A stretch of 64,000 nucleotides of DNA from Candidatus Eremiobacterota bacterium (GTDB taxonomy: Bacteria; Vulcanimicrobiota; Vulcanimicrobiia; Vulcanimicrobiales; Vulcanimicrobiaceae): positions 593,300-657,299 of the forward strand of contig JAFAYE010000001.1 in the NCBI GenBank assembly GCA_019240525.1, in the 5' to 3' direction. A program made the translations under genes and the position numbers. Under the pieces are notes generated by a model. The model did not search any database. It saw only the letters and a program-made list of their open reading frames with translations, and was not told the DNA's origin. The first letter of the stretch is position 1. Each line of letters begins with the position of its first letter. Positions 55,931 through 58,811 of this stretch are shown here, piece by piece.

Positions 55931-57886
55931 TTACGGCGCGGGCATCGAGGCGCGTACGCGGTTGCCGTCGATGCTGCCCTCAATCGCCGCGGCGGCAGTG
56001 CTGCCGGTGGTCGACCAGGCGGCGTGCAGCGCGCCGATGGCTGCACCCGTGATTTTCAATGCCGCCTGCGCGCTGGCCGTACGCGCGTTGAGATCGGCCG
56101 TGCCAGAGACGGCGAGATCGTTGGTCCAGCGAACTTCCGACAGCATCACCCGATCGGCGGCGTTTTGAAAGCTTGCGGAATACGTACCGCCGCGTAAACC
56201 GGCGCCCGAGCTCAAATGGAATTGATACGAGCGCGAAAGCACGTCGGCCGCGGCAAGCAGCGCGGCGGCGGCGGCGCGAAGTTGCTTGGGCGTCGCGCGA
56301 TTGCCCGGCAAGGGCGAAGCGGGTTCGACGTCGTCGAGCGAGCGCGAGAACGCAGGCACCAAATGCAGCGCGGGAACACGCGCGGTGCAGGCGTCGCTCA
56401 CCTCGCCGCTCTGCGTAAAGCGGCGCACGATTGACGATGCGCAACCGCCGAAGTCGTCGAGCGCGGTCACATGACCGGTGTTGGCAACGATCACGTGCGT
56501 CGAGTGCGCAAAGAGCTGTGCGGCCTTTTCACCTTCTGCCGGCGTCGTGATCGTGTCGAGATCGCCGTTGAGCACGAGCACCGGGACGCGCGGGAAATGC
56601 GTTCCCGGAGGAACCGGCTCGCCGGCAGGATGGTACTTCGAGGCGACCGGCCAGGTGAGGCAGAGCGGAACGTAGGCGTAGTCGATTGGAATATTGAGAA
56701 ACTCGTCAATGCTAAACGGCGCATAGAGCGCAGGGTCGTCGTCGCGCTTGCGCTGCAAGGTGGCATCCCAATCGCGCTTGCGTGCGGGCGGCGGAAGTCG
56801 CATGTCGTAAGCCTGCGGATTATCCGAGCAGCTTGCCGCGGCAAAGAGACCCTGACTGTAAAAACGGGCCTTGGCGCCGGCACCTTCTTCTTCGGCATAT
56901 GCTTCGCTGACGAGACGCTCGAGCGGCGCGCGATCGTTCGCCAAAAATGCGCGCGCTGCCGCGTCGAGGTCGCGATAGGCGATCGGGTCCAATCCGGCCG
57001 TATCCATCACGAAGGCGACGTCCGCCGGCGAGACACGATCGCGATCGACGCGCAGCTCTTCGAGGAGCGATTTAATGCGCTCCACGGAGCTCCCGCGCAG
57101 ATCGGAGCAGACCGGCGAACGCGAGCACGCGCGAGTAAATGCCGCGCGTAAGGTCGGTGCTGTGCTCGGATACCAGGGACTGCCGCCGATAACTTGATAA
57201 GCGCCGTCGAGCACGATCGAGCGGACGCGGTCGGGATGGCGACCCGCGAATGCTTGAACGAAAAACGAGCCGTACGAATCGCCGTAGATATCCACCTTCG
57301 TGATGTGCATCGCGGCGAGAACGGCGGCCATGTCGTCGGCAGCAATCGCCGTTCCGTAGAGGTCGGACGTGCGGCCTAGCTCGCGCCCGCATTGCGTAAC
57401 CTGCGATAACCTCATTACCGGCGCACCTTGCAGCGGCCGGCAAACAATTGCGTCGGACGATCCCGTGCCGCGATTGTCTACTAAGAGCAAGTCGCGCGTT
57501 TGCAACAGCGGCGCGTAGAGCCCTCGATAGAGCGAGTGGCTGCCGATCGACGGATATCCCGGGCCGCCTTCCACTGCGACGATCGTGCCGGCCGCTCGCA
57601 CCGAACGATTCGCATGCGGGAGCCACGCAATCGCAAGATCGATCGAGCCCGGAACTTGGCCGGCCGGATCGAGAGCGACGCGCAACGTTCCGCAATAATA
57701 GTCGCCGCCGAGACAAGGCGTCATCTTTATCGATCCGACGTGCACACTGGGATCGGCGATGCGGCCCGCACCGAGCGCAAGCGGCGGCTGCAAGTGCGAT
57801 GCAGCGCAGCCGCCCGCGACGGCGATCGCAAGCGCAGTTAGGAAACGCGAGGCATGCACTCTTACGGAGTTCACAGCCGGCGCCAC
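55931..57886 (-). CDS. TAP-like alpha/beta hydrolase, lipoprotein
   Basis: A 651-aa protein; GTG 57886 is used, but GTG codons at 57874 and 57859 are also possible. The signal peptide ends in a lipobox (VAGGC). The hydrolase core has VEGGPGYPS (the HGGPG-like oxyanion loop), nucleophile in YGDSYGSFF, acid in LNGDLDTITTP and His in NTGHVTAL. It resembles the SlpD/Tap tripeptidyl and prolyl aminopeptidases. A C-terminal extension of about 150 residues (from about 500) has a beta-rich domain of unknown role. The DpnI-like gene lies immediately upstream. Confidence 0.82.
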   Translation of the reverse strand: MAPAVNSVRVHASRFLTALAIAVAGGCAASHLQPPLALGAGRIADPSVHVGSIKMTPCLGGDYYCGTLRVALDPAGQVPGSIDLAIAWLPHANRSVRAAGTIVAVEGGPGYPSIGSHSLYRGLYAPLLQTRDLLLVDNRGTGSSDAIVCRPLQGAPVMRLSQVTQCGRELGRTSDLYGTAIAADDMAAVLAAMHITKVDIYGDSYGSFFVQAFAGRHPDRVRSIVLDGAYQVIGGSPWYPSTAPTLRAAFTRACSRSPVCSDLRGSSVERIKSLLEELRVDRDRVSPADVAFVMDTAGLDPIAYRDLDAAARAFLANDRAPLERLVSEAYAEEEGAGAKARFYSQGLFAAASCSDNPQAYDMRLPPPARKRDWDATLQRKRDDDPALYAPFSIDEFLNIPIDYAYVPLCLTWPVASKYHPAGEPVPPGTHFPRVPVLVLNGDLDTITTPAEGEKAAQLFAHSTHVIVANTGHVTALDDFGGCASSIVRRFTQSGEVSDACTARVPALHLVPAFSRSLDDVEPASPLPGNRATPKQLRAAAAALLAAADVLSRSYQFHLSSGAGLRGGTYSASFQNAADRVMLSEVRWTNDLAVSGTADLNARTASAQAALKITGAAIGALHAAWSTTGSTAAAAIEGSIDGNRVRASMPAP

Positions 57887-57907
57887 TCATCGCGTACGTT
57901 CGCACGG

Positions 57908-58620
57908 TCAAGCCCTGCCGGCGCTACGATTCGCACGCGGCTCGAGGCCCTCCACCAAAATGTTGCATCCTTTCCAACCTGCCCGCCTCGCTTTTTCTGA
58001 AAGCGGTTTGCGCGGCTCGACCCGATCTTCGCCGATGAGGCGTCCCGGAAACGCGTCGACAAAAACCACCGTTGCAAACCGCGTATCGAACTCGACGAGC
58101 ACGTATTCTGGCATTGCCCCGCGCGAATTGCCTCGATCGTGGGCTGGTATGCCGCGCCCGGGATGCGTTTTCCGAGACGGCCATTCTTCCCCTTGAGTTG
58201 GTAGCGGCTCTGGCATCCAACGCATTGAAAATCGGCGACCGGCGTATTGTCGGGCAGTTGGCCGAGCTCGTCGCGTTTGCAGTTCAAGCAAAAGAGGTTG
58301 AACGACGCCCATGTTTCGAGGGCCACCCGCGTGGCTTGCGCCGCGCTGACGAATCGAGTCATCAATGCCATGTCGATCAACGGGCTGAAGACGGGTGCGA
58401 CGTCGAGCCGCTGGTAGCGGCCGGGGCTCACGAAGCGAAGCATACCTTGATCGCGAAGCACCTGAAGCGACTGGCGGATCTTAGCGTCGACGAAGCGATT
58501 GTTGGGGAACTCTCGCTCAAAGCGATGGCGCTGTTTGAGGACGTCTGAGAGTCTGAAGTCCCTAGGTAGCTCCGACACGATCCCGTGCATTAGGTCTTTC
58601 CACGTTACCGATTTGCCCAT
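57908..58620 (-). pseudogene. frameshifted DpnI/Dam-replacing-type restriction nuclease with N-terminal wHTH
   Basis: Two overlapping frames together encode one DpnI-like protein of about 237 aa. Frame 1 (ATG 58620) gives a winged helix at about 1-75 (FRLSDVLKQRHRFEREFP, VDAKIRQSLQVLRDQGMLRFVSPGRY). The nuclease start follows: zinc ligands C111, C114, C133 and C136, with D130 and K143 in VADFQCVGCQSRYQLKG. DpnI has Glu where Q141 stands. After the GGGG run at 58117-58120 the match continues one frame over: PEYVLVEFDTRF, EPRKPLSEKARRAGWKGCNI. Adding one G restores the frame. In DpnI the winged helix is C-terminal; here the order is reversed. DpnI cuts adenine-methylated GATC. Genuine loss or assembly error cannot be separated here. 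Confidence 0.8.
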
Positions 58621-58692: not shown

Positions 58693-58811
58693 GCATGCTT
58701 CGACAGGCTCAGCATGACAATGCTGATCTGCTTCGACAGGCTCAGCATGAAAATGCTGATCATGCTTCGACAAGCTCAGCATGACAAGGCTTCGACAAGC
58801 TCAGCATGACA
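58693..58811. repeat. palindromic repeat, cluster 3 (4 copies)
   Basis: Four copies of the core CTTCGACARGCTCAGCATGA, some joined by the spacer AATGCTGAT. They fill most of the 58621-58888 gap between the DpnI-like gene and the exported-protein gene. Same family as clusters at 2838 and 24277. Confidence 0.88.

Follow-up and report, generated by a model that had tools for sequence, protein, structure and literature searches.

The window, a stretch of 64,000 nucleotides from a genome of the phylum Eremiobacterota, carries on its minus strand a gene of the DpnI type (58620-57871; Table 1). Its open reading frame is exactly as long as the intact homologues in two related genomes (G043 and G039), with a middle segment that lies out of frame. 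A Pfam search placed a winged helix (wH) domain, PF17726 (DpnI_C, E 1.9e-17), first and the nuclease domain PF06044 second, the following part of the nuclease being recognized in another frame. DpnI was the only PDB protein found similar by phmmer, and the match runs in swapped order: query residues 83-223 correspond to residues 9-148 of chain 4esj_A, and the wH (query residues 20-72) to residues 205-257 of the same chain. The PADLOC model mREase_II also matched (E 3.8e-41). The relatedness to DpnI proposed in the preliminary description of this DNA is thus borne out by both DpnI-family Pfam models and by the phmmer match. The gene end that it placed at 57908, on the other hand, had to be moved, because the first frame resumes after a second break and the open reading frame runs on to 57871. 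The gene is flanked by a putative exported hydrolase-like gene and by a gene without a Pfam match.

Table 1. Features of the DpnI-type gene in the window (positions are those of the window).
Feature	Position	Strand	Evidence
Complete permuted DpnI-type open reading frame, 249 aa	57871..58620	-	Translations and Pfam; homologues of G043 and G039 of equal length
N-terminal wH, aa 7-70, PF17726	58411..58602	-	Pfam; phmmer to 4esj_A 205-257; alignment
PD-QxK nuclease, first part (aa 82-168), still in the starting frame; contains the Cys pairs and the catalytic residues D130, Q141 and K143	58117..58377	-	PF06044, E 2.4e-21
First frame break	58115..58121	-	Translations; DNA alignment with G043 and G049
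Second nuclease part, about 56 codons, readable only in another frame	57945..58114	-	PF06044 profile positions 94-149, E 3.8e-9; dN/dS
m6A pocket and guanine-reading loop RKPL...RRAGWKG, out of frame here	57968..58012	-	Residue table; roles from PMC4117772
Second frame break, of opposite sign	57941..57947	-	DNA alignment; fragment tblastn with the G108 homologue
C-terminal strand and helix of the nuclease, starting frame again, reading VRIVAPAGLDRANVRDEWRRL up to the stop at 57871	57871..57936	-	Comparison with VRIVAPAAVDRANVRQQWRLL of G043

At either end of the displaced segment the frame is broken, near 58118 and again, with the opposite sign, near 57943; the two breaks lie about 170 bp apart and leave the length of the open reading frame unchanged. 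The first, already recognized in the preliminary description, is confirmed in the assembled sequence and sits in a short G run; the second, compensating one had been missed and does not fall in a homopolymer. It was exposed by DNA alignment with two relatives (G043 and G049), and fragments of the G108 homologue re-enter the first frame at 57936-57874. Protein fragments were used in this search because tblastn with whole proteins aligns straight across the compensated stretch. About 56 residues are read out of frame, among them the whole m6A-binding loop, in which alignment identifies the counterparts of DpnI R126, L129, R135, W138 and G140.

The nuclease domain PF06044 was found in 18 of the 149 genomes of the phylum. 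The 17 copies besides that of the window have no interruption, share 36-77% identity with the window protein, contain both Pfam domains (PF06044 and PF17726) and, without exception, have the wH first, the reverse of the nuclease-then-wH arrangement of the DpnI family. The permuted order, initially suggested for the window protein alone, is therefore shared by all its relatives in the phylum, and homologues of standard order turned up only outside it. Across 84,980 species genomes, a scan yielded at least 80 loci; among the matches listed, the two-domain homologues outside Eremiobacterota (about 70 loci) were all nuclease-first, and a few homologues were nuclease-only or split open reading frames. 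Further sampling of 400 Chloroflexota, 291 Armatimonadota and 396 Acidobacteriota genomes added about 20 new proteins, again exclusively nuclease-first. Altogether, the wH-first order occurred in none of about 90 two-domain homologues from outside Eremiobacterota, counting the matches listed and the sampled phyla. The nuclease tree unites the permuted proteins in a single group (support 100/100); the domain order changes once on this tree, and the Glu/Gln state of the active site requires two changes. The wH tree, based on a shorter alignment, also groups the permuted proteins, with weak support. Within what was searched, the simplest reading of these trees is a single origin of the permutation within the phylum. 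The most divergent permuted copies, L118:1018-1836 (G093) and L131:9305-10228 (G106), are 35-38% identical to the G043 homologue and branch as a deep subgroup; one zinc Cys has been lost from the G106 copy.

How the domains are joined can be seen by comparing predicted and known structures. The AlphaFold model of the G043 homologue has a pLDDT of 90, and its residues 78-249 superpose on residues 1-175 of DpnI (Z 20.6, 1.6 A over 171 residues). The end of the wH, GRYQRL, aligns to DpnI's own C-terminus, GKYRKL, at the very end of the chain. It follows from the superposition and the wH alignment that the new internal junction lies between the former C-terminus and the former N-terminus, which only a few residues separate, and that the new termini fall in the old interdomain linker of DpnI. 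Such junctions are as expected of a natural circular permutation at the level of domains. The permutation may have proceeded through a tandem duplication, the C-terminus of the first copy becoming fused to the N-terminus of the second, with the outer domains lost. A DpnI homologue with two tandem wH domains behind the nuclease is encoded at L083:4980-5990 and also at L174 (Abditibacteriota), indicating that domain duplication happens in the DpnI family. We also considered a mobile origin and rejected it: a phage record gave one weak partial match, viral contigs contained no relative, and the matches in the plasmid collection were all distant or partial.

In DpnI, catalysis involves Asp53, Glu64 and Lys66; guanines are read by Arg126, Arg135 and Asn48, and the methyl groups of both m6A bases are packed on Leu129, Arg135 and Trp138, the latter supported by Gly140 (PMC4117772). 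The equivalents of R126, L129, R135, W138 and G140 are invariant in all 18 permuted proteins, that of N48 is present in 17 of them, and the zinc Cys residues are nearly invariant. The position of DpnI Ser17 is occupied by Ala, Ser or Thr (Ala or Thr in 11 of the 18), and that of Asp78, which acts via its main chain, by Gly. The catalytic D, Q and K are invariant in the 17 homologues. Compared with the PD-ExK motif of DpnI, D and K are kept and Glu64 is replaced by Gln throughout the clade, that is, in 18 of 18 proteins. The same Gln is found in 10 of the 67 canonical-order proteins compared, which come from several phyla, and in more of those sampled later; predicted QxK active sites are widespread in homologues of DpnI. 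MspJI and EcoKMrr, the latter a wH-QxK protein, use PD-QxK as their catalytic motif (PMC12707154). The clade-wide occurrence of Gln marks it as a family state and not as a lesion, and its place in the catalytic motif of these two enzymes makes it compatible with activity.

Both domains of the permuted proteins are homologous to those of R.DpnI of Streptococcus pneumoniae (PDB 4esj, 4kyw) and of the PD-(D/E)XK-wH family, which includes FcyTI and Psp4BI (PMC11037411, PMC4117772). They share with DpnI the zinc Cys residues, Asn48, Asp53, Lys66 and the residues of the m6A pocket, and differ from it in the reversed order, in QxK instead of ExK, in their restriction to one phylum in the searches made and, in the case of the window copy, in the broken frame. 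The canonical-order QxK homologues of Chloroflexota, Acidobacteriota, Elusimicrobiota, Nitrospirota and Methanoperedens have the same Gln and the same two domains, and are the closest neighbours of the permuted clade in the nuclease tree as drawn; unlike the permuted proteins, they have the nuclease first and the wH second. EcoKMrr (wH, then PD-QxK) and MspJI (SRA, then PD-QxK), which act on modified DNA (PMC12707154), have in common with the permuted proteins the layout of a reader followed by PD-QxK. However, this is a likeness of layout and not membership: the domains of the permuted proteins belong to the DpnI family by Pfam, no Mrr domain was matched in the window or in the 17 relatives, and only the QxK motif is common to both. 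Proteins of the wH-GIY-YIG, PUA-wH-HNH, PLD-wH and wH-Mrr-NTPase types likewise combine a wH reader of adenine methylation with a nuclease, sometimes wH-first, but with other nuclease folds (PMC11037411). The fusion types listed in that study (PD-(D/E)XK-wH, wH-HNH, PUA-wH-HNH, wH-GIY-YIG, PLD-wH and wH-Mrr-NTPase) do not include a wH-first DpnI. We found no mention of a permuted DpnI, and no biochemistry of a permuted or QxK DpnI homologue, in the literature searched; REBASE and supplements lay outside its scope, so a prior listing is possible.

The neighbourhood of the permuted gene varies, and the comparison revealed no partner gene conserved across the clade. In six genomes (L120, L121, L123, L124, L125 and L129) the gene adjoins glyA, encoding serine hydroxymethyltransferase, and at four of these loci it also adjoins a uracil phosphoribosyltransferase gene. 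The recurrence of the glyA neighbourhood in several genera points to a stable chromosomal place rather than to a mobile element. In three other genomes an HNH_2 nuclease gene lies nearby.

We consider it probable (about 0.7) that a single lineage of Eremiobacterota carries DpnI-type m6A-dependent endonucleases whose domains were swapped once by circular permutation, and that their intact members are DpnI-like. This reading draws on the retention of the catalytic D, Q and K and of the m6A-binding residues, on low dN/dS, on the DpnI-like predicted fold and on the position of some relatives' permuted genes beside HNH nuclease genes. Against it speak the Dam-family methylases encoded in three of the 18 genomes, two of them within an apparently intact DpnII-type system, the Ala or Thr at the Ser17 position and the broken state of the window copy itself. 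If intact members do work like DpnI, the wH would bind a fully methylated Gm6ATC-like site, the nuclease would independently check the two methyl groups through its Trp/Arg/Leu pocket, and the cut would be made within the site by the D-QxK metal center. Incoming Dam-methylated DNA would be destroyed as a result. DpnI serves as a model enzyme and as a laboratory tool, and a double check of methylation is ascribed to the cooperation of its two domains. Naturally domain-swapped DpnI proteins with a different active-site motif and the same DNA contacts would offer a direct test of whether such cooperation hinges on the linkage between the domains.

The state of the window copy is a separate matter. 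The swap is real and old; the breakage is either recent or a sequencing error. As assembled, the copy cannot make a working nuclease, since the m6A-reading loop falls out of frame between the two opposite breaks; the gene could still yield the wH, but not the loop. Compared with G043 and G049, nonsynonymous differences amount to 0.09-0.18 per site and synonymous differences to 0.70-0.87, in the in-frame and shifted parts alike. With dN/dS of about 0.1 or less, the shifted segment included, constraint must have held until very recently. Searches with fragments of 54 relative proteins, covering the roughly 29.5 kb of the window for which relatives allow a comparison, revealed no further genuine break of the frame; four candidates elsewhere proved to be gene ends or antisense open reading frames. 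The lack of residue-level decay and of other breaks points to a recent and local cause, which leaves either a very recent event or a local assembly error. The preliminary description had offered a decaying gene or an assembly error as the choices, and a recent and local break may stem from either. Programmed frameshifting is not favored, as it would need two shifts of opposite sign, neither of which is present in any relative in the phylum.

That the breaks are real and recent, and the nuclease inactivated in this species, seems to us about an even bet. The reason might be that a solitary Dam-family methylase made the nuclease self-harming: this genome encodes one 52.6 kb past the window end (TIGR00571, E 3.2e-53), with E. 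coli Dam as its best match in the PDB and an IstB gene of the IS21 type nearby, and a genome search found no DpnII gene. The scrambled segment is exactly the part that reads m6A and GATC, and no other frame break lies nearby. However, the conflict need not lead to inactivation, as two relatives (G049 and G108) combine the same kind of methylase with a nuclease gene that is intact, and plain decay would not predict a second, frame-restoring break. The restored frame and the unchanged length of 249 aa, the strong constraint on an otherwise undecayed gene, shifted segment included, and the G run at the first site would instead fit an assembly or sequencing error, in which case the living organism has an intact permuted gene; we put this at somewhat less than an even chance. 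An error at the second site would have to arise outside a homopolymer, and general indel errors were not seen in the comparable 29.5 kb, indicating that the assembly is not generally indel-prone. By our own estimate over that length, the chance of two random breaks both falling in this 0.75 kb gene is below 0.001.

Dam-family methylases bear on the intact genes as well. Matches over the curated cut-off occur in G000, G049 and G108 and in none of the other 15 nuclease genomes; with their predicted GATC specificity, they should conflict with an active Gm6ATC nuclease. The Dam-family methylases of G049 and G108 are 69% and 62% identical to that of the window genome, and each is accompanied by a DpnII endonuclease, a DpnA-like methylase and an intact permuted gene. 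In G049, a single contig (L113:2269-9435) holds this gene and, about 3.3 kb away, the genes for DpnII, the DpnA-like methylase and Dam. In G108, the same system and the permuted gene (L115:9040-12355 with L114:8821-9675) share a 1.75 Mb contig. DpnII is present in only four of the 149 genomes of the phylum, and two of these four have the permuted gene. The co-occurrence in two genomes challenges the pneumococcal rule, according to which DpnI and DpnII are alternative cassettes (PMC12707154). Mutual exclusion of the permuted gene and Dam was looked for and not found: of 99 family genomes, 17 have the nuclease, 10 have this kind of Dam (62% identity or more) and three have both, against 1.7 expected by chance. 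GATC avoidance proved uninformative, the observed/expected ratio being 0.95-1.04 with or without the gene.

The conflict might be resolved by a changed specificity, by tight control or by a role as reader. One could go further and suppose that the permuted proteins do not cut host DNA at Gm6ATC at all, because they recognize another mark, are tightly silenced or act as non-cutting m6A-binding regulators. The intact permuted genes beside DpnII-type systems, the presence of the nuclease in three of the 10 Dam-bearing family genomes and the stable housekeeping locus next to glyA in several genera would agree with this. We nevertheless regard it as unlikely, given that those same proteins keep every catalytic side chain and nearly every one that contacts GATC or m6A. 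Nor is coexistence with Dam unique to the permuted clade: among 50 genomes with canonical homologues, a Dam-family match over the cut-off occurs in five of the 39 of ExK type (and in none of the 11 of QxK type), and fewer than 100 potential conflicts were reported among more than 1000 wH fusion proteins (PMC11037411). It is equally unlikely that the permuted wH-PD-QxK descendant of DpnI in Eremiobacterota shares the cell with an active GATC-methylating DpnII-type system. If it does, the permuted enzyme must read a different mark, switch on only in defined circumstances or be a non-cutting m6A reader, and a DpnI relative would no longer be mutually exclusive with GATC methylation. The weakest reading, that of a degenerating DpnI with its catalytic Glu mutated to Gln, had been prompted by a Gln that is indeed present and by frame breaks that do exist in the assembly, but it is highly improbable and, as regards the Gln, refuted, since this Gln is invariant in the 17 intact homologues and recurs in 10 canonical-order homologues of other phyla.

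Several smaller observations were made along the way. At six canonical loci (L099, L071, L084, L046, L068 and L090), DpnI genes lie beside split or truncated Dam or DpnA-like matches, an arrangement that might have arisen if DpnI replaced, or inserted itself into, an operon of the DpnII type. In two genera, two genes adjoin the permuted gene (L117:4747-7412 and L131:10138-12166): one for an HNH nuclease, with weak PtuB similarity in L117, the other for a conserved protein of about 320-340 aa without a Pfam match. Finally, a short repeat, TGCTTCGACA(A/G)GCTCAGCATGACA, is present in six copies at 58698-58810 and 2858-2920 of the window, four of them directly upstream of the gene, and similar copies are scattered through related genomes.
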